Shown: in pieces, positions 6,673-31,489 of the stretch
Position numbering within the stretch: position 1 is the stretch's first letter
Layout: every line of letters begins with the position of its first letter
Virus record (IMG/VR): IMGVR_UViG_3300014050_000092
Span: 1-31,489 of that record
Length of the DNA: 31,489 bases
Strand: one strand, 5' to 3'
Source: a virus
Notes under the pieces: model-generated
What the model was told of the DNA's origin: nothing
The model's input: the letters and a program-made list of their open reading frames with translations, nothing else
Databases searched by the model: none
Position numbers and translations under genes: made by a program

Positions 6673-7209
6673 TTACAGTAGGGCCAGAGCGATTAAGGCA
6701 CTGGAGGTTGAGCCAATATTGGTAATGTTTGTAGTTGAACTTACTGCTTGGTCTCCAAAGAGTCCGAGTCCTAGCAATGAATTCATCTCTAATAAACTAA
6801 TTCTGTTTGTGTCTGCTGTAGTTCCGTTTGCTCCAGCAATACCTTGTGGGCCAATAGCACCTGTAGGACCTGTTGCTCCTGCTGCACCATTTGCTCCCTT
6901 AATATTTCCTTGCAACACCCATCTGCTGCTGGATGAACTATACGCATAAAAATTTCCGTTTGCGGAGTTTAGGTATACATCTGCTTCTAAAGGACCAGAT
7001 ATTCCTGCGGATTCTGGTGCAACTGAATTAACAGTAATTTTACTTCCACGAGTACCAGCAACACCTGCTGCTCCCGTAGGACCAGTAATAGAAAGACCTT
7101 GAGGACCTGTAGGACCTGCGGGACCTGTAGGACCAGGTGCTCCTTGAGCGCCCGGACGTGAACCAGCAACAACTACCCATTCGGTACCTGTCCAGCGTTT
7201 TAATGACAT
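6673..7209 (-). CDS. Short collagen-like tail fibre protein
   Basis: 178 aa. A short head (MSLKRWTGTEWVVVAG) leads into Gly-X-Y triplets at about residues 20-55, a globular insert (residues 56-105, with the ADVYLNSANGNFYAYS motif), a second Gly-X-Y block (107-135), then a C-terminal helical segment (TNRISLLEMNSLLGLGLFG) that could trimerise the chain. The W-x-G-x-x-W head is the same kind used by the longer collagen-like proteins here. ATG is preceded by AGGAG at good spacing. Phage collagen-like proteins form trimeric triple-helical fibres on tails; the exact role is inferred. Confidence 0.85.
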   Translation of the reverse strand: MSLKRWTGTEWVVVAGSRPGAQGAPGPTGPAGPTGPQGLSITGPTGAAGVAGTRGSKITVNSVAPESAGISGPLEADVYLNSANGNFYAYSSSSSRWVLQGNIKGANGAAGATGPTGAIGPQGIAGANGTTADTNRISLLEMNSLLGLGLFGDQAVSSTTNITNIGSTSSALIALALL

Positions 7210-7285
7210 TGATTGCTCCTACACTCATCCACAAGTAGCATCTATATATTATCCTATTTTCTCTTTTACGAGTTCTTCATATACC

Positions 7286-8974
7286 TTAAAATACCCTGAC
7301 CCATGGGACAAGGTTGGCATATGTAGAACGTAGGGTTGTTGTAGTTAGAGAGTCTCCTCTAGGAATAGTTCCCGCAATTGTATTGCCTGGAACTCCTAGA
7401 CCGATAGTGTTTGCAAACTCTGGCTTTCCTAGGTCCATACCTGCCAAAAGCAAGTTTGTTGCCGATGTGTCTGTAGAAAAGACAACAGCATAGGCTTCAC
7501 CAGGGACTAAGGTGTAGGAAGAAGGGTAGCCACCAAAAGTACTAAATGAGCGGGTATACCAAGTCCCTGTCTGAGTCATCAAACTAGTGTCACTGTTAGT
7601 TCGTGCAACAAGAGTCATAGCACCAGTTTGTAAATTTATTGTGTAAAGAAGGTATCTAGCGTGTGTTGCACTAGGCAAATCTAAAAACCCTGAACCATTC
7701 ATGCAGAACATAGATATGCTGTTAATTGTCAAAATCTTTGGAGATAAAAGAATTGCTGCTGGGTTTGAACCAAAGTCAGGTCTAATATTGATAGTGCAAT
7801 TAGTTCCTAGATGAGCCCTTGAAATATTCTCAAGATGAGTTCCAAGAACAAAATCAACTTCATTAGTTGCTCCAGGAACGCCCTGCGGACCTGTAGGTCC
7901 AGGAACAAAACTTTCTCCCGCTGGACCTGTTGGCCCCTGAGCACCTGTAGGTCCTGTAGGTCCTGTAGGTCCTTCCAAAATTTCTTCTGCACCGCTAGTA
8001 TCAACCCAAAGAACAGTTACATCCTCGTCTGGAGGCGTTGGTTGAATAGCAAGATAGTCTAAATCAATATCATCTTCATCAATCCACAATTCACCTTCGT
8101 ACAAAGTTCCAGTTGGCGGTTCAGGGTCGGAGAAGATAAGTTCATCAAGAACATTTTCTTCAGATGCCCAGAACTGAAATTCTGCTGGGTCTGGTGCTGT
8201 AGTTCCAGAATAAATTGCAGCATTTGCACCAAGGTCATCAATGTCAAACCAAATATCACCAGATGTTGGTCCTGTAGGTGAGCCTAAACCAATATAAGTT
8301 TCTGTAGGAATACCAGTTCCATCAGTTGAAACATAATCCTTACCTTTTGGACCAATGTTTCCAGTAGGACCTGTTGGTCCAGTCGGACCAGTTGGACCAA
8401 CAATTTGACCTACGCTACTCCAAGATGTTCCATTCCATACATACATATCACCATCTGAATCAACAATGTATGCGTCATTACGAGCATTACCTGTAGATGG
8501 AAGATTTTGTGGTGTAGCAACACTTCCTCGAACATTGATAGATGTTCCTTGAGGACCAGTGCTACCTGTCGGACCAGTAGGACCTGGCACGGTTGATGTA
8601 GGACCAGTTGCACCCGTTGGACCAGTAGGACCAAGAATGTTTCCAGCATTAAGCCACTCTGCACCTACTACGTCCCACACATACAAGTCACCTTGTACAA
8701 GGTACGCCTCACCAATACTTCCAACAGGGTCAGCAGCAATTAACTCGGCTAGTGTGTCGTATGAGCCAAGAAGTGTAAGACCTGCACCTTGCGCTCCAGT
8801 TGCACCAGTCGGACCTGTAATACCCTGTAAACCCTGTGCACCAGTCGGTCCTGTAGGCCCGATAGGAGCAATTTTTACTACTTGCCAAACATTGCCGTTC
8901 CATCGCCAAGTATTTGTTCCAGAACTAAATTCTTGATTTAGGTACGGCGAATTAGGAAAATCAATCGCTGCCAT
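7286..8974 (-). CDS. Collagen-like modular tail fibre (562 aa)
   Basis: The N-terminal head (residues 1-35) has the pattern FPNSPYLNQEF...W-R-W-N-G-N-V-W, shared in type with the 640-aa fibre and common at the start of phage fibre proteins. Gly-Pro-Thr triplets follow, interrupted by a type A module (about 61-111, GSY...YLVQGDLYVWD...NAGNILGPTG), a type B module (about 141-193, GSVAT...NDAYIVDSDGDMYVWNG) and an acidic spacer (about 214-335) with W-[FV]-D-x-D motifs. A last collagen block precedes a roughly 190-residue C-terminal beta domain ending VPWVRVF, probably the receptor-binding tip. ATG has GAGGAG upstream. Likely a homotrimeric virion fibre. Confidence 0.88.
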   Translation of the reverse strand: MAAIDFPNSPYLNQEFSSGTNTWRWNGNVWQVVKIAPIGPTGPTGAQGLQGITGPTGATGAQGAGLTLLGSYDTLAELIAADPVGSIGEAYLVQGDLYVWDVVGAEWLNAGNILGPTGPTGATGPTSTVPGPTGPTGSTGPQGTSINVRGSVATPQNLPSTGNARNDAYIVDSDGDMYVWNGTSWSSVGQIVGPTGPTGPTGPTGNIGPKGKDYVSTDGTGIPTETYIGLGSPTGPTSGDIWFDIDDLGANAAIYSGTTAPDPAEFQFWASEENVLDELIFSDPEPPTGTLYEGELWIDEDDIDLDYLAIQPTPPDEDVTVLWVDTSGAEEILEGPTGPTGPTGAQGPTGPAGESFVPGPTGPQGVPGATNEVDFVLGTHLENISRAHLGTNCTINIRPDFGSNPAAILLSPKILTINSISMFCMNGSGFLDLPSATHARYLLYTINLQTGAMTLVARTNSDTSLMTQTGTWYTRSFSTFGGYPSSYTLVPGEAYAVVFSTDTSATNLLLAGMDLGKPEFANTIGLGVPGNTIAGTIPRGDSLTTTTLRSTYANLVPWVRVF

Positions 8975-9013
8975 TTACACTCTCCTCAAGAATAGATACT
9001 TCTAATTGTACGG

Positions 9014-9169
9014 TTAAGAATTAAGACCAAGATTTAGTTGATTTACATATGCGGATGCCCAGTTGATGGCTGAAGCCTCTGATTCCCATGGGCCAGAACT
9101 ATCAACAACTGCATCGTCTAATTTTACTTCACAAATAAGTTCTCTTGTTATTGTATAAGTATATGCCAT
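9014..9169 (-). CDS. 51-aa small conserved-looking protein (hypothetical)
   Basis: A short gene between the 562-aa fibre and the propeller. ATG at 9169 has AGGAG seven bases upstream, and the frame runs 51 codons to TAA. The protein begins MAYTYTITRELICEV and has SSGPWESEASAINWASAYV, a strand-strand-helix layout with a W-x-S-E-x-x-A pattern. I recall similar small proteins next to fibre genes of other environmental phages but cannot name a family. Probably a small tail accessory or assembly protein. Support: strong ribosome site, clean fit between neighbours, and codon use like its neighbours. Confidence 0.72.
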   Translation of the reverse strand: MAYTYTITRELICEVKLDDAVVDSSGPWESEASAINWASAYVNQLNLGLNS

Positions 9170-9178
9170 TTGATTCTC

Positions 9179-10090
9179 CTAGTTAGTAATGAGCGATGTG
9201 CCCAAAAGCCCTAATTGACCTGCTGCAACAAACTTAGGTATTCCTGTTGGAAATCCATATGCAACAGTGTTTACGTTTGAACCAGCAAAGTTTGACTCCA
9301 CTTGCACCCAGTTATTAGCATCTGTTGAATATATAGTTGTTCCGTTGACCCCACCAATAAAAAATGTTGCAGAGCCAAAATCAACGTCTCTTAAAGTGAG
9401 CGCTCCCACTGGTTGTGTCTTCTGAGTCCATGTTATTCCATCTGAAGAAATTGCAATTTTTCCATCTCCACCGCAAGCAACATAGTAATTTAAACCATAT
9501 GAAACAGAGTAAATAATGCTGGTTGTAAAACTACTTGCTTGTTGAGTCCAAGTTGTTCCATTTGATGATGTTGCTAACTTACCTGCATCTCCGACTGCAA
9601 CATATAAAGACCCTGAATATGTAAGACCATAGATAATAGAAGTACCAAAACTACTTGTCCGCTGAGTCCAAGTAATTCCATTTGAGGAAGTTGCTAATTT
9701 TCCAGAAACACCTACAGCAACAAAAAGAGAGCCAGAATAAATTACATTAAGAATTGTTGATGTACCAAAACTGCTGGTTCTTTGAGTCCAACTAATTCCA
9801 TCGGTAGAAGTTGCTAGTTTTCCAGAGGCACCAACTGCTACATAAACTCCAGCGCCATATGCAATATCCCAGATTGTGGTAGTTCCAAAACTACTTGTCC
9901 GCTGAGTCCAAGTAATTCCTTCAGGAGATGTTGCTAGTTTTCCTGAACTTCCCACTGCAACAAACTGACCATTTAAAAACTCTACTGATGAAATTTCAGT
10001 AGTACCAAAACTGCTTGTTTGAAGAGTATAAGAAGAAGGGGCATTTAGTCGAATACGAGATGACCAAATCCCATGAAGGGCTTTAAGCAT
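9179..10090 (-). CDS. Seven-bladed beta-propeller fibre protein
   Basis: 303 aa made almost wholly of seven repeats of about 40 residues after a roughly 22-residue leader. The consensus of repeats 1-4 is TSSFGT-x-x-I-x-x-V-x-Y...FVAVG-x-SGKLATS-x-[DEN]-GITWT-Q. Repeats 5-7 are more diverged. The S-x-[DN]-G-x-T-W signature resembles the Asp-box of sialidase-type propellers and photosystem stability factor-like repeats. Seven copies fit a closed seven-bladed propeller. No catalytic residues of sialidases are apparent, so a binding rather than enzymatic role is likelier. It sits among collagen-like fibres and is probably a virion adhesin tip. Start ATG at 10090 follows the 640-aa gene by 3 bases. 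Confidence 0.85.
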   Translation of the reverse strand: MLKALHGIWSSRIRLNAPSSYTLQTSSFGTTEISSVEFLNGQFVAVGSSGKLATSPEGITWTQRTSSFGTTTIWDIAYGAGVYVAVGASGKLATSTDGISWTQRTSSFGTSTILNVIYSGSLFVAVGVSGKLATSSNGITWTQRTSSFGTSIIYGLTYSGSLYVAVGDAGKLATSSNGTTWTQQASSFTTSIIYSVSYGLNYYVACGGDGKIAISSDGITWTQKTQPVGALTLRDVDFGSATFFIGGVNGTTIYSTDANNWVQVESNFAGSNVNTVAYGFPTGIPKFVAAGQLGLLGTSLITN

Positions 10091-10093
10091 TGA

Positions 10094-12016
<1,923 letters not shown>

Positions 12017-12019
12017 TTA

Positions 12020-15000
12020 TTACACCGCCCTCTCGTACATAAACTCAACAATAATTTCATCATTAGGATTAAATGTAAATGGGTCTGTATGGCTTGCAGG
12101 TAATCCTTCTGCATATACCGCAACCTGTGTATAAATAAATAATTCAATTCTTGTTCTATCATCATTATTAATAGCGACTGTTCCAAAAAAGTTTTTACCA
12201 GTACTAATACTTCTCATTGTTACAGTTCCTATTGGCTCAACATTTCTCATACCGCTAACTGCGGTAAATGGAAGTGTAATTCTATATGTTCCATTTCCAC
12301 GGTTGGTGGTTGAGCCAGCAATAATAAATAGATTTCCTTTAATAAGTCTGCCCATTTGAACATATTTACCAAAAATAGTTCCATTGCCTAAAGTTGGATT
12401 AATACTGCTAGCAGACCAAACAGGAACGTATGTATTCCAACTGCCATAATCAAAGGCACCTGTTGGTCCTGTAGAGCCAGTTAGTCCTGTAGGTCCAGTA
12501 ATTCCTTGTGCACCAGTCGGTCCAGTAATACCTCGTGGGCCAGTTGGTCCTTGGAAACGACCAGCGTTGTCCCACTGGACGTTAATAGCATCCCAGACGT
12601 ACAAGTCACCAGCAACAATATATGCTTCACCAGCAAACCCTGTAGGACGTTCTGCAATAAAGACTTCATATACTGCATAAGAACCAGAAATAAAGAGGCC
12701 CTGACCAGTATCTCCCTTAGTTCCTGTCGCACCAGTTGCACCTGTCGGACCCACAGAGCCAGTTGGTCCAGTGATACCTTGAATACCTTGTGCTCCTGTT
12801 GGTCCAGTAGCACCAACCTCGCCTTGCGCTCCTGTTGGTCCAGTAATTCCTTGGATGCCTTGTGGTCCAGTTGCACCTGTCGGACCCACAGAGCCAGTTG
12901 GTCCAGTGATACCTTGAATACCTTGAGCACCAGTAGGACCAGTAATTGAGAGTCCTTGTGGTCCAGTAATTCCTTGTGGTCCTGTTAATCCACGAATACC
13001 AGTTGGGCCTTGGATACCCTGAACACCTTGTGGTCCAGTTGGGCCAGTAATACCTTGACTTCCAGTTGGGCCAGTAATTCCTTGGATACCCTGAATACCT
13101 TGTGGTCCTGTAGGACCAGTAGAACCTACAGGTCCAGTAATACCTTGAATACCTTGTGCACCAGTAGCACCTGTTGCGCCAGTAGGACCAACCACACCTT
13201 GTGGGCCAGTTGCACCTTGCGGTCCTGTAATTGATAAGCCAGTAGCACCAGTTGCACCTTGAGCACCAGTAGGACCAACCACACCTTGTGGGCCAGTTGC
13301 ACCCATAGCGCCTGTAGGTCCAATTGGAGCAGCACCAACTTCTACCCAATATGAGTCGTAATAAACATAAATTTTCCCATTAAGAGTGTTAAACCATGAA
13401 TCACCATTTTGTGGATTTGCTGGTGGAGTTGCTGCTTCAAGTGCAAAACTTCCATAACGACCAGTTGCTCCAGTTGCACCAGTTGGTCCAACAATTTGTC
13501 CAGCATCAACCCAAGAGTCGCCATCCCAAATATAAATATTTCCATCAGCATCAACAATGTATGCATCATTAATATTATTTCCAGATGATGGAAGTAGCGC
13601 CGCGGTAGCAACACTTCCCTTAAGAACAATTGATGCTCCTGACTCACCCTGTGCACCAGTTGCACCTGTTGCACCAGTAGCACCCGTTAAACCAGTAGCA
13701 CCTGTTGGTCCCTGTGCACCAGTTGCACCTGTCGCACCTGTTGCACCAGTAGCACCCGTTAAACCAGTTAAGCCTGTTGCACCTGTTGGACCTGAAACGT
13801 TACCTACGTTTGTCCAAGTAGTTCCATCCCATACATAGAGATTTCCTTGAATAAGGTAAGAATCACCTTGAGTAATTGGGCCAGTAGGGTGGGCTGCAAT
13901 TAACTCTGCTTCTGTTTCATAAGAACCAGCAATAGCAAGACCTTGACCTTGTGCACCTGTAGGACCAGTAGGACCTGGCACAGTTGAGTCAGCACCTGAC
14001 GCACCTGTTGCACCAGTAGGACCCATCTCACCTTGTGCACCTGTTGGACCAACTTCACCCTGAATACCAGTAGCACCAGTAGGACCCATCTCACCTTGTG
14101 CACCTGTAGCACCAGTAGCACCGACAGCACCAGTTGGGCCAACTTCACCCTGAGCACCGACAGCACCAGTTGGGCCAACTTCACCCCGTGCACCAGTTGC
14201 ACCTGTTGCACCAGTAGCACCAGTAGCACCTGTTGCACCAACAGCACCAGTGGCACCCGTTGCACCAGTAACACCAGCATCACCAGTGCGAGAGAAAGAA
14301 ATTATAAGATTTTCGTCTGCTCTAAGAGCAGTTACTTTTCCACCAACATATGAAACTTGTAATTGATACCAACCACCAGTTTGGCTGGCCATAGATGTAA
14401 TTTGATAAACCGCATACTGCGTTGGGTCTGCTAAATAACTTAGTTTTATAAAACCTTTAATTGCTGATGTGCTACTTGTAAGAGTTTCTAAGTACGAAGC
14501 AACATTTCCACCAAAACTATCAACGTTGTTAATTGCCATGTAAGAGGCATTTACTTCATACCCATTTACTCTCAAATAACCAGAGCCAGGATTAGCAATA
14601 GCGTAGTTGCCACTAAATGTGTATCGAAAACTTACTCCACCAAAAGCACCAGTAGCACCAGTTGCTCCTGCTGAACCTGTTGCACCTGTTAAGCCAGTTG
14701 CACCTGTAGGGCCAACATTTCCTTGGATACCTTGAGCACCAGTAGCACCAGTAGCACCAGTTGCACCAGTATCACCTTTAGCACCAGTAGCACCAGTAGC
14801 ACCTGTTGCACCAACAGCACCTGTAGGGCCAACATTTCCTTGGATACCTTGTGCTCCAGTTGCACCTTGTGCACCAGTTGGACCGACTCCACCTTGGATA
14901 CCCTGAGCACCTGTTGCGCCAGTAGGACCAACTTCACCTTGAATACCTTGAATACCTTGTGCACCAGTTGCACCTGTCGCACCTGTTGCACCAGTAGCAC

Positions 15001-15943
15001 CAGTAGCACCGACAGCACCTGTAGGACCTTGAATATTTCCAACGCTATCCCATTCGGAATTTATTGCGTCCCATACATAAAGATTTCCAGCAACAATATA
15101 ACTATCACCAGGGCTACCTGTTGGATGTGCTGTTTGTAATGCAACTAATGTTGCATAAGAACCAAGAATTGTTACTGATGTACCAGCAGCACCTGTTGCA
15201 CCAGTTGGACCGAGGGCACCAGTTGGTCCTTGTACACCTGTTGGACCCTGAATACCTTGTGCACCAGTTGCACCAGTTGGTCCTTGTACACCTGTTGGAC
15301 CCTGAATACCTTGTGCACCAGTTGCACCAGTAGCACCAGTGTTTCCTTGAATACCTTGAGCACCAGTAGGACCAACCACACCTTGTGGTCCAGTAATTCC
15401 TTGTAAGCCTTGAGCACCAGTTGCACCTGTCGCACCTGTTGCACCAGTTGCACCTGTTAAACCTGTAGGACCAGTTGGTCCACCTGCCGGGCCTTGCGCT
15501 CCTGTTGGTCCTGTTGCACCTGTTAAACCTGTAGGACCTGTTGCACCTTGTGGACCTACTGAACCGCGAGGAACAGACACCGCAGCCTGAGACGCAACTG
15601 CTCCACTTACTGGGTCAACATTTGTAATATCTACATCGCTACCATCATTTACAGGTAGGTAGAAGTCAAAGTTATATGCTTTTGCTCCATAAACACGGAC
15701 GCGAACTGTGTAATACCAACCAACAGGAGATAGGGCTCTATTGTCAGTTGTAGGTAAATCAATACTAAATGAGCCAGTATTGTCTAACTGAAGTTGTATA
15801 GGCCCCGATAAAATTACTGCGTCATTAGCATCTGTAATCTTTCCAGAGGCAGAGAAAGTGACAGTTCCAGAAGCGGGAAGACCATTTACCTTAGTAAATT
15901 GGCCCTTGACCGTTCTAGTTGTCACATCTTCTGAATAACTCAT
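12020..15943 (-). CDS. Giant collagen-like modular tail fibre (1307 aa)
   Basis: The N-terminal domain (1-125) has the V-K-G-x-F-x-x-x-x-G-x-P-A-S-G-x-V-x-F layout, then [12 protein letters not shown] and [10 protein letters not shown]. This is a prealbumin- or fibronectin-like head seen in actinophage minor tail proteins and likely docks to the tail. Collagen triplets follow with inserts: type A near 255-305, a unique globular domain near 431-551, type A near 680-730, type B near 775-825, type C near 828-871 and type A near 1081-1131. The C-terminal cap (about 1164-1307) has [19 protein letters not shown], a frequent phage fibre ending. ATG has GGAG upstream. First gene of the fibre block; its inserts recur in the other two fibres. 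Confidence 0.9.
12732..12790. repeat. Direct repeat copy 1 (59 bp) in giant fibre gene
   Basis: These 59 bases recur identically at 12867-12925, 135 bases (15 Gly-X-Y triplets) away in the same frame. Such exact copies inside a collagen region point to recent unequal recombination or slippage. Confidence 0.85.
12867..12925. repeat. Direct repeat copy 2 (59 bp) in giant fibre gene
   Basis: Identical partner of 12732-12790. The exact match at third-codon positions, although neighbouring triplets vary freely, argues for recent duplication rather than selection on the protein alone. Confidence 0.85.
15216..15331. repeat. Tandem 54-bp-period repeat in giant fibre gene
   Basis: A 62-base sequence at 15216-15277 is repeated exactly at 15270-15331, overlapping by 8 bases with a period of 54 bases (six Gly-X-Y triplets). 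In-frame expansion or contraction here would change the length of the fibre shaft without breaking the gene. Confidence 0.85.
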
Positions 15944-28092: not shown

Positions 28093-28211
28093 TTCTTATG
28101 CTCCTTCATATGTCGAACTAGTGTGAAGTGTGCAAAGCCAGAGCGAACTTCAATTTCTTTCTTGCATTCAGGGCAGATTACTCTGCGATTGGCTGGAACA
28201 TTACTACTCAT
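28089..28211 (-). CDS. 40-aa zinc-finger-like protein
   Basis: Starts MSSNVPANRRVICPECK. A C-P-E-C pair (residues 13 and 16) plus H-x(6)-H-x(4)-H in the tail (FAHFTLVRHMKEHKK) can bind one zinc ion in a C2H2 manner. An upstream in-frame ATG at 28325 would give 78 aa, but that extension lies entirely across the 54-aa gene in another frame, and its sequence is low-quality as protein. The start at 28211 overlaps the 54-aa gene by 8 bases. Likely a small nucleic-acid-binding protein. Confidence 0.65.
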   Translation of the reverse strand: MSSNVPANRRVICPECKKEIEVRSGFAHFTLVRHMKEHKK

Positions 28212-28368
28212 CGCAACCACAGGGTTTGTCGTAATCGAACTCGCAGAAGCAACATCCCATTTTTTCTCCATGTGCTTTGCAGTAGTAAGTAAATTGGTGT
28301 TCATCGCAACACACCCAAAGTTCATCCATAATTTCGTAGAACTCTGTTGTATCTATTGGTTTTGACAT
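28204..28368 (-). CDS. 54-aa cysteine-rich putative zinc-binding protein
   Basis: ATG at 28368 with AAAGGA upstream. The protein runs MSKPIDTTEFYEIMDELWVC and continues with Cys at about 20, 21, 30, 38, 39, 41, 49 and 51 and His at 24 and 33, ending CGCDE. Eight Cys and two His in 54 residues strongly suggest two zinc sites. The open frame has no internal stop, and the promoter just upstream is close to consensus. It is the first of three overlapping tiny genes. Function unknown; zinc-ribbon microproteins in phages often bind host polymerase or nucleic acids. Confidence 0.75.
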   Translation of the reverse strand: MSKPIDTTEFYEIMDELWVCCDEHQFTYYCKAHGEKMGCCFCEFDYDKPCGCDE

Positions 28369-28395: not shown

Positions 28396-28446
28396 AGTCT
28401 AAAACCTCTAGAATAGAATGTCAAGTTTTCCAGACGCCCTTTCCGT
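28396..28446 (-). promoter_or_regulatory. Promoter module copy 1 (consensus promoter plus upstream box)
   Basis: On the minus strand TTGACA (28424-28419), a 17-base spacer and TAGACT (28401-28396) form a near-consensus promoter. Seven bases upstream of the -35 is the box at 28446-28432 (ACGGAAAGGG core) shared with three other sites in the window. It drives the 54/40/24-aa gene set, with a leader of about 20 bases and a ribosome site. The box overlaps the stop of the next gene upstream. Confidence 0.65.
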
Positions 28447-28973
28447 CAGTCTATGAGGGCGACCCGAATGGGAGGGAAGGGTTCTACAGGGGAGAGGGAG
28501 GTAAGGGGGAAACGCCAACCGTTCATCTCTGGGCTGGAGTCAAAGTATTCGGCGTGTTGCATAGCGACATCTGCTGGGATGTAGCCGTAAATCTTTACCT
28601 CGGAGAAGAAGTCTGGGTCTAAAACTTTACAGGCAAAGATGACCTTGCCAACATCTTTCTCCCAAATTGGAACGTGGTCCTTAGTGCGAACTGTTCTGAC
28701 TTCAATGTTATCGCCAACATCAGAGAACTTGCCTCGTTCTTTGTGGAAGCGCTTACTGTAAACAGGAACACTCCATTGGCGGTCAGTGACATAAGCAACT
28801 GCCACCTCTGCGACCATAGTTCTTATGGTGGCAAGAAGTTCGTGTTCTAACTTTCCGTTTTCAAGACCTGCTTGATAGTTGGGGCGGTTAGTGCCTCCGC
28901 GTTTTTCAAGCCAGCGATGTTTTGCTAAGTCGTAGCAGGTCTCTAACTCTCTTTGAGGTATCCGAACAATCAT
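28446..28973 (-). CDS. Hypothetical protein, possible PD-(D/E)XK-like nuclease
   Basis: 175 aa. The N-terminal helix region carries a conserved-looking glutamate (EHELLATIRTMVAEVAVAYV). Then comes a strand-turn-strand FSDVGDNIEVRTVRT (about 83-97), followed by VIFACKVLDPDF and VKIYGYIPA. The order E...D-x-x-(x)-x-E-x-R plus later strands resembles phage PD-(D/E)XK nucleases in which Arg or Lys follows the acidic pair. The C-terminus ends FPLTSLSP. I have seen similar phage proteins but the fold is an inference. The ATG overlaps the stop of the preceding gene by one base (TAATG). Confidence 0.75.
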   Translation of the reverse strand: MIVRIPQRELETCYDLAKHRWLEKRGGTNRPNYQAGLENGKLEHELLATIRTMVAEVAVAYVTDRQWSVPVYSKRFHKERGKFSDVGDNIEVRTVRTKDHVPIWEKDVGKVIFACKVLDPDFFSEVKIYGYIPADVAMQHAEYFDSSPEMNGWRFPLTSLSPVEPFPPIRVALID

Positions 28974-29359
28974 TACTCAACGCCAAAGTATTTCTTAAGC
29001 CATATTGCCTTATCTACATCATAAGGTTTATTTGGGGTCTTATCTTCGTAGTCATCGCCATAGTTATAAGTAATGTTTTCAGTTACATCAATAATGTAAG
29101 TAGCGCCTAAACACTCGTAAGACCAGTTATGTTCTTTTTCTCTTTCAGAGGCATCCATTTCCATAAATGAAGGAGGGTCTAAATCTTCATCATTGTCATC
29201 AATCCATGAGTAATACTTTGCGTGTGACTTTGCTAGATACTCTGCTTCACCACTTGAGTCTGCGTTTCCGTGAGTATTGCAACTATCGCAATACCAAACC
29301 CAGCCAGCAACTGTGCTTTTACAGGTTTTGTTTGTAATGATGTCTTGTAGTGTTTCCAT
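28973..29359 (-). CDS. Acidic protein with small Cys/His motif (hypothetical)
   Basis: 128 aa, strongly acidic in the middle (DDNDEDLDPPSFMEMDASERE). Residues about 20-33 have WYCDSCNTHGNA, a C-x-x-C plus His that could bind a metal with a later Cys. The start ATG has AAAGGA seven bases upstream. It is the first gene downstream of promoter module copy 2 and is coupled to the nuclease-like gene (TAATG). Acidic surface proteins of phages may mimic DNA; that is speculation. No family recognised. Confidence 0.75.
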   Translation of the reverse strand: METLQDIITNKTCKSTVAGWVWYCDSCNTHGNADSSGEAEYLAKSHAKYYSWIDDNDEDLDPPSFMEMDASEREKEHNWSYECLGATYIIDVTENITYNYGDDYEDKTPNKPYDVDKAIWLKKYFGVE

Positions 29360-29391
29360 TTTTAAGTCCTTTCGTCATTTGTCTTGAGAAT

Positions 29392-29441
29392 ATAGTAAGT
29401 CTATACAATGAAAAGTGCAACTTTTTGCGCTCTCTTTCCGT
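29392..29441 (-). promoter_or_regulatory. Promoter module copy 2
   Basis: On the minus strand TTGCAC (29420-29415), a 17-base spacer and TACTAT (29397-29392) precede the 128-aa gene. Six bases upstream of the -35 lies the box ACGGAAAGAGAGCGC (29441-29427). A pyrimidine-rich tract and an inverted repeat TTTCCG/CGGAAA lie further upstream, to about 29470. The gap 29360-29477 holds nothing else. Confidence 0.6.
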
Positions 29442-29477
29442 TATAAGAAGAAGCGGAAAAAAGGAGGGGAGGGGGGG

Positions 29478-29663
29478 TTAGGTGCGAGGTTTGGGAGGTT
29501 TGGGGGTGACCAGTTCCCTGACCATGTGGACGTTGTACATAATGTCGCCTGTGGCGTTGAGCAGGGTCAGCACTTCAGCAAAGGCTTTTTTGCGTGCCTT
29601 TTGACATCCAGTGCATGGGCATACCCAATCGCCGCGTTCTGGCGTCTGGTTTGGGTCAGCCAT
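29478..29663 (-). CDS. Small CPCTGC zinc-binding protein (hypothetical)
   Basis: 61 aa. Begins MADPNQTPERGDWVCPCTGC; three Cys within six residues probably bind metal. A helix follows (KARKKAFAEVLTLLN), and the tail is Pro/Lys-rich (TPKPPKPRT). The start ATG has GGAGAA upstream. I recall small actinophage proteins with the same W-V-C-P-C-T-G-C motif and unknown role. Its coding sequence is unusually C-rich near the 3' end (the plus strand reads as G runs), which shapes the G-rich flank of the promoter module. Confidence 0.72.
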   Translation of the reverse strand: MADPNQTPERGDWVCPCTGCQKARKKAFAEVLTLLNATGDIMYNVHMVRELVTPKPPKPRT

Positions 29664-29687
29664 CTTTTCTCCAATGCATGGGTTTTC

Positions 29688-29882
29688 CTATCTACATACA
29701 GAGCAATAAAATGGTGTGCGAAGGTTCTCTGCTTTAGTAACAATGACCTGAGAGCATTTAGAGCATCTAGCCTCTACCAACCCGCGTTTTGCTAAAGAAT
29801 CATCAGTTTTTATAGTCAAAGAGCGAGTGTAGTAAACCTTGGTCAAATACCAAGTAAGCAATATACAAGTTATAGTAATCAA
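29688..29882 (-). CDS. Membrane-anchored zinc-ribbon protein
   Basis: 64 aa. An N-terminal hydrophobic helix (ITITCILLTWYLTKVYY) is followed by a C-terminal ribbon with C-S-K-C (about 40-43) and C-S-V-C (about 60-63), the classic C-x2-C...C-x2-C zinc layout. The start is TTG at 29882, with AGAGGA seven bases upstream, and overlaps the stop of the preceding gene by four bases (TTGA), which supports the rare start codon. Function unknown; the zinc ribbon may recruit a partner to the membrane. Confidence 0.7.
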   Translation of the reverse strand: MITITCILLTWYLTKVYYTRSLTIKTDDSLAKRGLVEARCSKCSQVIVTKAENLRTPFYCSVCR

Positions 29883-30127
29883 TCTTCATCCTCTTTTTGT
29901 TCTATTGGGGCAACACCAAAATCAACAATAATGTGGTACGCCGCTTCTATGTAGATAGAAACATTTGAGATAAGGTCCTCTGGGTGGTGAAGTTCATCTT
30001 TGTTATGAACTCCCCAGTTCTTAGAAAGGTATTCCTTAAGTCCTGGAACCAGCGTATCTACAAACTCGTCAGAGGTCATATAGCCTCTTTTGCGTAACTC
30101 TTTATCTGTTACTCGTTTTTGCACCAT
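29879..30127 (-). CDS. Hypothetical helical protein (82 aa)
   Basis: 82 aa from ATG at 30127; a TTG two codons earlier is in frame but less likely. The sequence is a mix of helices with a basic start (MVQKRVTDKELRKRGYM) and an acidic end (EQKEDED). MTSDEFVDTLVPGLKEYL suggests a short DNA-binding or oligomerisation fold, but no family is recognised. There is no ribosome site: the -10 TAAGAT ends seven bases before the ATG, so the message is probably leaderless. Its stop is coupled to the membrane zinc-ribbon gene (TTGA). Confidence 0.7.
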   Translation of the reverse strand: MVQKRVTDKELRKRGYMTSDEFVDTLVPGLKEYLSKNWGVHNKDELHHPEDLISNVSIYIEAAYHIIVDFGVAPIEQKEDED

Positions 30128-30133
30128 TTTCAA

Positions 30134-30184
30134 ATCTTAGCACTTCTACAATAAAAAGTTGGTTTTTTCGCGCTCTTTTTCCGT
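30134..30184 (-). promoter_or_regulatory. Promoter module copy 3
   Basis: On the minus strand an extended -10 TGC-TAAGAT (30139-30134) lies 17 bases from a poor -35 (CCAACT, 30162-30157). Seven bases further is the box ACGGAAAAAGAGCGC (30184-30170). The weak -35 suggests the box helps recruit polymerase. The plus-strand gene at 30233 begins just to the right. Confidence 0.58.
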
Positions 30185-30220
30185 TATAAGGGGAAGAGGC
30201 AGAAAAGAAAAGGAGGGGTG

Positions 30221-30233
30221 TAGGATGGGGGGA
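30221..30233 (+). promoter_or_regulatory. -10 element for a leaderless proteasome-like gene
   Basis: TAGGAT at 30221-30226 ends seven bases before the ATG at 30233, so transcription would begin at or next to the start codon. There is no clear -35. A G run just before the ATG could also act as an unusual ribosome site. Confidence 0.35.
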
Positions 30234-30778
30234 TGACAACGGTAATTGGGATGCAGTTTGGGGATGGATGCTGGTTGGCATCTGACAGCCGAACAACTGG
30301 TGAGACAGGACGCCCCTACCACCACGACTGGGTTGAGAAAATAACGCAGCGTGGCGAATACCTAATTGCTGGCTCTGGAGATGCTGATGCTTGCGACATC
30401 ATTCAGCACGTTTGGCAGCCACCTGAGCCTCCTAAGAAAAATAGAAAAGATAAAGAGAATAACCTTTTCAACTTTATGGTGACAACAGTTTCGCCAAGTC
30501 TTCGCCAGTGTCTTGAAGATGGCGACTACGAGCAAGACAAAAATGATAAGGATGCTGGTTATCTTTTCCTTATTGCCCTTCGTGGAGTCATTTACGAAAT
30601 AGATAATTCAAATACTGTCTCGATGAGAGATGATGGCATTTATGGAATTGGCAGTGGCTCTAAGTATGCAATTGGTGCGCTATACGCTGGTGCGTCATAT
30701 ATAGATGCACTTGAGATTGCTGCAAAGAATGATATCTACACCGCAGCGCCGTTTAAGTATTACGAACAAGATAAGTAA
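30233..30778 (+). CDS. Proteasome beta-subunit-like Ntn hydrolase
   Basis: 181 aa. It begins MTTVIGMQFGDGCWLASDSR: after Met removal Thr becomes residue 1, with Asp at 17 (ASDSR) and Lys at 35 (VEKI), matching the Thr1-Asp17-Lys33 catalytic set of 20S proteasome beta and HslV subunits apart from a two-residue insertion. Later motifs fit too: LIAGSGDADACDI, IYGIGSGSKYAIGALYAG and DALEIAAKNDIYTAAP. There is no long propeptide, so Met excision alone would activate it, as in HslV. It probably assembles into rings and degrades peptides; host or phage targets are unknown. It stands alone on the plus strand among minus-strand genes and appears leaderless. Confidence 0.87.
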   Translation: MTTVIGMQFGDGCWLASDSRTTGETGRPYHHDWVEKITQRGEYLIAGSGDADACDIIQHVWQPPEPPKKNRKDKENNLFNFMVTTVSPSLRQCLEDGDYEQDKNDKDAGYLFLIALRGVIYEIDNSNTVSMRDDGIYGIGSGSKYAIGALYAGASYIDALEIAAKNDIYTAAPFKYYEQDK

Positions 30779-30821
30779 AGTTATACAATGACAGGTGCGT
30801 TTTTCTGCGCTCCCTTTCCGT
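30772..30821 (-). promoter_or_regulatory. Promoter module copy 4, facing into the proteasome-like gene
   Basis: The box ACGGAAAGGGAGCGC (30821-30807) lies six bases from a -35-like ACGCAC (30800-30795). The -10 position reads TACTTA (30777-30772). The CATTGTATA segment of the spacer is shared with copy 2. It points left into the 3' end of the plus-strand proteasome-like gene, so it would make an antisense RNA or is a relic. Confidence 0.45.
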
Positions 30822-30853
30822 TATAGGAGGCGGCGGAAGAAAAAAGGGGGAGA

Positions 30854-31087
30854 TTAGGGTGTGGGGTAGTTTTGGGTGTCGTCTGCAAGGAGACGTTCAA
30901 ATATGTCGTCAGGCATTTTGTGCCCGATTCTCTGGTGCGCTTTAAGATGGTCAATCATTTCTTGAGTTGACTCTGCTTTGTAGTAAGGCTCTGTGTCATC
31001 ACAAAAATAACACATGGCACAGATAACTCCGCCAGAAGAATGTTGGTAAACATTCACATCATCTTGAAACATCTTTGCATAGGTCAT
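30854..31087 (-). CDS. Small C2H2-like zinc protein (hypothetical)
   Basis: 77 aa. C-A-M-C-Y-F-C (about 23-29) followed by MIDHLKAHQRIGH gives enough Cys and His for a zinc finger. The pattern of a CxxC, then a helix with H-L-K-x-H, then GHKMPDD, recalls small actinophage proteins of unknown function. ATG at 31087 has no spaced ribosome site, but a -10 TATACT ends seven bases upstream, so it is likely leaderless. It ends inside a G-rich plus-strand stretch. Confidence 0.72.
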   Translation of the reverse strand: MTYAKMFQDDVNVYQHSSGGVICAMCYFCDDTEPYYKAESTQEMIDHLKAHQRIGHKMPDDIFERLLADDTQNYPTP

Positions 31088-31434: not shown

Positions 31435-31489
31435 GCGGTTGTAGCGCAGTTGGTAGCGCGAGACCTTGCCAAGGTCTAGGTCGCGGGTT
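31435..31489 (+). tRNA. tRNA-Gly (GCC), truncated by window end
   Basis: The 5' acceptor strand GCGGTTG is followed by a D arm closed by GCGC/GCGC and an anticodon stem AGACC/GGTCT with loop TTGCCAA (anticodon GCC, glycine). The T-arm strand GCGGG then begins, and TT ends the window. The T loop and 3' acceptor strand are outside. It could be phage-encoded, which would fit the Gly-rich fibres, or a host gene at a prophage boundary. Confidence 0.88.

Follow-up and report, generated by a model that had tools for sequence, protein, structure and literature searches.

Among the small intergenic sites described in phages of actinobacteria, the stoperators of cluster A (L5-like) phages are asymmetric, oriented with transcription, and have been proposed to halt elongation (PMC9283540). 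The start-associated sequences of cluster K phages (SAS/ESAS) are short asymmetric GGGATAGGAGCCC motifs at gene junctions, which sometimes contain the upstream stop codon (PMC3203893). Here we describe a repeated element in a 31,489-base viral contig (IMG/VR record IMGVR_UViG_3300014050_000092, analysed over its whole length and called the window below). The element combines a conserved asymmetric box with an unstructured C-rich, G-poor tract upstream of it and, usually, a promoter-like sequence downstream, and this composite architecture was conserved in related contigs. We tentatively read it as intergenic punctuation, in which a factor-dependent (Rho-like) terminator and the box would be followed by a host SigA promoter, and we give this reading slightly less than an even chance.

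Four copies of the box, all on the minus strand, were located in the window and were scored with a position weight matrix (PWM):

28432..28446, minus strand: degenerate box of copy 1, ACGGAAAGGGCGTCT, PWM score 11.9, beginning where gene 28446-28973 has its stop codon.
29427..29441, minus strand: box of copy 2, ACGGAAAGAGAGCGC, an exact match, with orthologues in G001 and G003.
30170..30184, minus strand: box of copy 3, ACGGAAAAAGAGCGC, an exact match, sitting between divergent genes.
30807..30821, minus strand: box of copy 4, ACGGAAAGGGAGCGC, an exact match, sitting between convergent genes.

Copies 2 to 4 showed 0 mismatches to ACGGAAARRGAGCGC. The chance expectation at ≤2 mismatches, estimated from dinucleotide shuffles, was 0.03 matches, and four matches were reached in 0 of 100 shuffles. 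With a PWM made without the window copies, the three exact boxes scored 41.8, 39.4 and 35.6, against a maximum of 13.4 among 20 shuffles. Copy 1, which scored below that maximum, is therefore borderline by its sequence; in G001, G015 and G017 the corresponding junction carries a clear box, which starts at the homologue's stop codon. The original prediction, which had proposed four copies of one promoter module, was thus supported for three exact boxes and, through these counterparts, for a degenerate fourth. Copies 2 to 4 were alike beyond the box, upstream as far as TATAACGGAAARRGAGCGC and downstream into an A-tract; 3' of the box ACGGANNNRGAGCGC come RAAAAA, five bases and TTT. A TTTCCG/CGGAAA inverted repeat that had been ascribed to the same three copies was found in full in copy 2 alone, in part (as CTTCCG) in copy 4 and not at all in copy 3, and was not conserved in the family.

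A 19-mer, TATAACGGAAANNGAGCGC, and a looser pattern, ACGGANNNAGAGCGCRRAAAA, matched many IMG/VR contigs, from which an element set of 56 non-redundant copies in 17 contigs was drawn; these fall into groups A, B and C, with the window's elements in group B. Boxes were clustered in the whole records searched, and control matches were zero in nearly all of them. All of these results come from fragmentary contigs, mechanical gene calls and strict pattern scans. The box-bearing contigs examined had a terminase, a Prim-Pol primase, a resolvase and WhiB in common, which points to one broad phage family. Judged from sequence, they are a freshwater actinophage family related to Actinomycetia phage DSL-LC01, the nearest named member (terminase 76% identical). 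DSL-LC01 comes from a lake metagenome, with a predicted actinobacterial host and a predicted temperate lifestyle (PMC10611076). Terminase relatives in IMG/VR numbered 478. Coordinated variants of the box, with the C-rich tract retained, were ACGGAAAGGGCGCCC in G028, ACGGAGYGGRCGCCC in G024 and G025, and ACGGAATGAARGCGC in G036; ACGGAACGAGAGCGC and ACGGAAAGGGCGCCC are thus among the box types. The box-plus-tract element was not found in G034, G040 or DSL-LC01, and a 55-nt consensus query of named phages gave chance matches only. An origin as a host-derived or prophage site was rejected after two bacterial genome scans, one with 0 matches and one with 5 matches that lacked the C-rich tract. Many IMG/VR matches carrying ACGGAGGGAGAGCGC were set aside as unrelated, as they were isolate-derived contigs with near-identical flanks in which the C-rich tract was missing.

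Published Rho-utilisation (rut) sites are characterized by RNA that is C-rich, G-poor and unstructured (PMC6407284, PMC9160355). Upstream of the window boxes, the following stretches were identified:

~28447..28524, minus strand: C-rich coding 3' end ahead of copy 1, with 34 C and 14 G in 78 nt, in the top 0.5% of windows.
~29442..29519, minus strand: C-rich/G-poor tract ahead of copy 2, with 37 C and 7 G in 78 nt, running from the 3' end of gene 29478-29663 up to the box.
~30185..30262, minus strand: C-rich/G-poor tract ahead of copy 3, with 38 C and 4 G in 78 nt, overlapping the start of the opposite-strand hslV-like gene.
~30822..30899, minus strand: C-rich/G-poor tract ahead of copy 4, with 34 C and 7 G in 78 nt, beginning at the 3' end of gene 30854-31087.

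Among the 62822 78-nt windows of the contig, the copy 3 tract had the highest C-minus-G value, and the value of the copy 2 tract was reached by 45. When both strands of the window were counted together, only three 50-nt tracts had at least 20 C and at most 3 G, all of them at box sites. Across the element set the tract extended from about −75 to −5 relative to the box, with C peaks of 57% (group B) and 55% (group A) and G falling to 1–3% (−40 to −31), compared with a background of 21% each. Since it also contains A, it is more than a plain polypyrimidine. The upstream tract was unstructured, with mean minimum free energies (MFE) of −1.4 and −1.9 compared with −8.9 for random 58-mers. The element does not resemble an intrinsic terminator, given this lack of structure, an A-tract in place of a U-tract after the box, and the nil result for covariation described below. 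The tract was absent from the original prediction, as was the ATTGTATA-like block described with the promoters.

Most elements lie 3' of a same-strand stop codon, and the exceptions flank hslV. In the window, copy 2 is flanked by tandem genes, copy 3 by the divergent hslV-like gene and gene 29879-30133, and copy 4 by the convergent hslV-like gene and a short minus-strand gene:

30233..30778, plus strand: HslV-like (Ntn-hydrolase) gene, phrog_1040, E 6e-29.
30854..31087, minus strand: gene for a 77-amino-acid protein upstream of copy 4, whose homologues have the box 1–32 nt past the stop in 10 genomes.

Downstream of the 30854-31087 homologues we found seven BLAST-distinct genes (several with an MPILGT start) or a convergent hslV. 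In four genomes, homologues of gene 28446-28973 had the box at their stop codon, followed by three different downstream genes. The reverse case was also observed, with one downstream gene family keeping the box behind five different upstream genes in five genomes. Because the box is kept with either neighbour, the element behaves as a boundary mark and not as the promoter of one gene set. The HslV-like phage Ntn-hydrolase itself is kept in many relatives, and copies 3 and 4 bracket its gene, both facing against it. Group A boxes (L200, L201, L204, L214) stand 5' of genes whose products start MPILGT.ASQN.KSF; by appearance these are paralogues with a structural or tail-fibre role.

Promoter-like sequences were located downstream of the boxes in the window:

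28396..28424, minus strand: promoter TTGACA-17-TAGACT of copy 1, matching 10 of 12 consensus positions and preceding gene 28204-28368.
29392..29420, minus strand: promoter-like TTGCAC-17-TACTAT of copy 2, preceding gene 28973-29359 and conserved in G001 and G003.
29409-29402: ATTGTATA block in the copy 2 spacer, with a counterpart in the copy 3 spacer at 30152-30145.
30134..30162, minus strand: promoter-like CCAACT-17-TAAGAT of copy 3, with ATTGTAGA in its spacer and the ATG of gene 29879-30133 6 nt on; this gene is possibly leaderless.
30771..30799, minus strand: weak promoter-like CGCACC-17-ACTTAT of copy 4, lying antisense to the last part of the hslV-like gene, with its position kept in G001-G005.

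The order first proposed, a box followed by a −35, a 17-base spacer and a −10, was recovered in copies 1 to 3, with promoter-like hexamers 29–30 nt past the box end. It was weak in copy 4, which has ACTTAT/TACTTA alone, overlapping the stop codon of the opposite-strand gene; this promoter, if used, would read antisense through hslV. In the element set, a sigma70/SigA-type −10 occupied a preferred place after the box in 21 of 22 group B elements (shuffled mean 10.5) and in all 19 of group A (shuffled mean 7.6), and no such enrichment was found in group C (4 of 15 elements vs. 4.3 shuffled). The distance from box to −10 was 25 nt in group A, 29–30 and also 21 nt in group B, and 18 nt in G024 and G025. 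The −35 hexamer was good in copies 1 and 2 and in about half of group B, and the strong TATAAT promoters of group A, 25–26 nt from the box, had no TTGACA-like match. Window boxes lie at least 42 nt from any same-strand start, and several boxes in G010, G013 and G019 directly adjoin the next ATG. A ATTGTATA-like block was present 17 nt past the box in 22 of 22 group B elements, which places it within the spacer of the proposed promoter. An alternative −10 and a second operator are candidate roles for it, and the leaderless ATGs of G017 fit the former.

In the punctuation reading, the transcript of the upstream gene would pass through the unstructured C-rich, G-poor stretch, which would serve as a Rho-utilisation-like landing site. 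Elongation would then stop at the conserved box or just beyond it, with the box acting either as a pausing or termination zone or as a binding site whose protein obstructs the polymerase, and a host SigA-type promoter past the box would begin the following transcript, in many cases at its ATG or close to it. From these sequence patterns we infer termination by the element, the use of Rho or a similar factor, and a binding partner for the box. A host promoter would agree with the −10 enrichment downstream of the box and with the finding of no phage sigma factor in 13 genomes. Copy 4 lies between convergent genes, a position in which a terminator would be of use, whereas no gene is apparent that a promoter could drive. 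DSL-LC01 has strong GC hairpins (mean MFE −25, 27 sites) in the slot that separates stop codon from promoter, a parallel that suggests the window family uses a factor where DSL-LC01 uses a hairpin. Several points weigh against this reading. The comparison with DSL-LC01 is with one genome, which is GC-richer, and the C-rich tract is weaker in group C. The tract of copy 3, between divergent genes, would be met by antisense transcription only. The conservation of ~15–20 bp in the box exceeds the needs of any Rho terminator. The three exact window boxes agree with the RNA-polymerase pause consensus GG-N8-YG, which is missing in copy 1 and in the G024, G025 and G028 variants; since variant lineages lack it, the pause motif was set aside as an account of the box. 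We consider it improbable that a phage protein reads the box and, with host Rho on the C-rich tract, stops the polymerase and licenses the downstream promoter, with a specificity that varies between lineages and each gene forming a self-contained unit.

An activator site, as put forward in the original prediction, is an unlikely alternative, though the likeliest of the rivals: a phage or host protein on the box would recruit polymerase to weak promoters, and the tract would be incidental. This would agree with the −10 found in 40 of the 41 group A and group B elements and with the group A promoters, where the TATAAT is strong and no −35 is recognisable. WhiB-type regulators, which work through SigA in actinobacteria, would be candidates, and WhiB genes were present in 13 of 13 genomes searched. 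These include G034, G040 and DSL-LC01, where the box was not found, so WhiB does not separate genomes with the box from those without. The prediction also called for a constant distance between box and promoter; a box scan of relatives placed the −10 at 18, 21, 25 or 29–30 nt, with some boxes having none, which means that the spacing is not constant. Further evidence against an activator is that group C boxes lack a −10, that copy 4 faces into the final part (3' end) of its convergent neighbour, and that the box is retained with its upstream gene although the downstream gene differs. What survives of the regulatory claim is a real repeated element of regulatory type, present in relatives too and enriched for a −10, and not an activator at fixed spacing; an activator may act in groups A and B but would leave the family as a whole unexplained. 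A 97-amino-acid Cys-rich protein with two CxxC pairs (L217 8600-8893 in G001, and relatives) was encoded in 9 of 10 box-bearing genomes and 0 of 3 without the box. It was rejected as a box-binder because 159 open reading frames were similarly distributed (at least 6 of 10 with, none without), which makes the association non-discriminating.

A phage repressor that silences or halts transcription from the asymmetric box, in the fashion of L5-type repressors, is somewhat less probable again. Repeated asymmetric sites in short intergenic spaces, mostly oriented with transcription, would suit such a repressor, as would the predicted temperate lifestyle of DSL-LC01 (PMC10611076). Copies were also more alike within than between genomes (2.76 vs. 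4.54 mismatches per 21-mer; 0 of 2000 permutations), including where flanks were unrelated, as expected if the sites track a changing binding protein. Against this, no repressor was identified, both boxes flanking hslV are oriented against that gene, and a rut-like tract is no known feature of stoperators.

A further doubtful explanation is that the element persists chiefly as a boundary at which gene cassettes are shuffled by homologous recombination. The exchange of either neighbour around a retained box, including the one downstream family found behind five upstream genes, is what such shuffling would produce, but lineage-specific box variants and the ordered layout of tract, box and promoter point to a function beyond homology, and swapping could be a by-product. 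A structured RNA or translation-start signal, in which the RNA would be folded about the box, or the box would be a ribosome-binding leader like start-associated sequences, is very unlikely: the box is able to pair with the pyrimidine tract, and the ATG-adjoining boxes of G010, G013 and G019 have GGGAG/GAGAG in Shine-Dalgarno position, but true and swapped tracts were equivalent in the covariation test of this pairing (0.662 vs. 0.667), RNAalifold found no consensus structure, Rfam gave no match at the window boxes, and these boxes lie no closer than 42 nt to same-strand starts. A hairpin or RNA element was rejected on the same tests, as the true partner paired no better than a swapped one.

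Elsewhere in the window, a tRNA gene (Rfam tRNA) at 31435-31489 is truncated by the window end, and its anticodon looks like GCC (Gly). Positions 6673-15943 encode several very long collagen-like GPTGPTG repeat proteins; DSL-LC01 is also annotated with collagen-like genes.

The phage family of the window is a large freshwater group, as the terminase relatives in IMG/VR indicate, on which almost no experimental work exists. A defined punctuation element would offer a way to read the transcription units of freshwater actinophages and a natural test of how actinophages keep small genes apart where hairpin terminators are lacking. Variation of the box between lineages would give a starting point in the search for the factor that recognises it.

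Several described systems resemble the element in part. T4-type phages carry PeSL, mobile intergenic cassettes with an early promoter and a stem-loop. The element is like them in being a repeated intergenic promoter module amid shuffled small genes, and differs in lacking support for a stem-loop. Like Rho-dependent terminators, it has ~70–80 nt of C-rich, G-poor, unstructured RNA around a stop codon, with a possible pause sequence within 20 nt; to our knowledge, Rho terminators are without a conserved 15–20 bp box, unlike the present element. The terminator-promoter units of DSL-LC01 belong to the same phage family and likewise place a terminator-like feature, then a promoter, between small genes, but they consist of GC-rich hairpins and a CTAAAG-NN-GTTATAAT promoter. 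That promoter motif (L398 18000-48000) occurs in 27 copies genome-wide, many within GATTCT...AGAATC inverted repeats, typically 5' of a small gene and mostly past a GC-rich hairpin, and looks like a separate, undescribed promoter family.

By analogy of position, cluster K start-associated sequences are the closest counterpart of group C, whose boxes adjoin an ATG. Unlike them, the box does not have the GGGATAGGAGCCC consensus, the window copies lie well upstream of starts, the 17-bp inverted repeats of SAS/ESAS were not seen in the element, and a C-rich tract is not described for SAS. In function, the closest analogue is the stoperator of cluster A mycobacteriophages. Both consist of asymmetric sites that recur in the short gaps between actinophage genes, are similar in length and are oriented with transcription; the present element has another sequence and adds the unstructured C-rich tract upstream and, usually, the promoter downstream. 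By these likenesses the element appears to belong to the repeated intergenic regulatory sites of actinophages, among which its consensus and C-rich tract set it apart from both cluster A stoperators and cluster K start-associated sequences.

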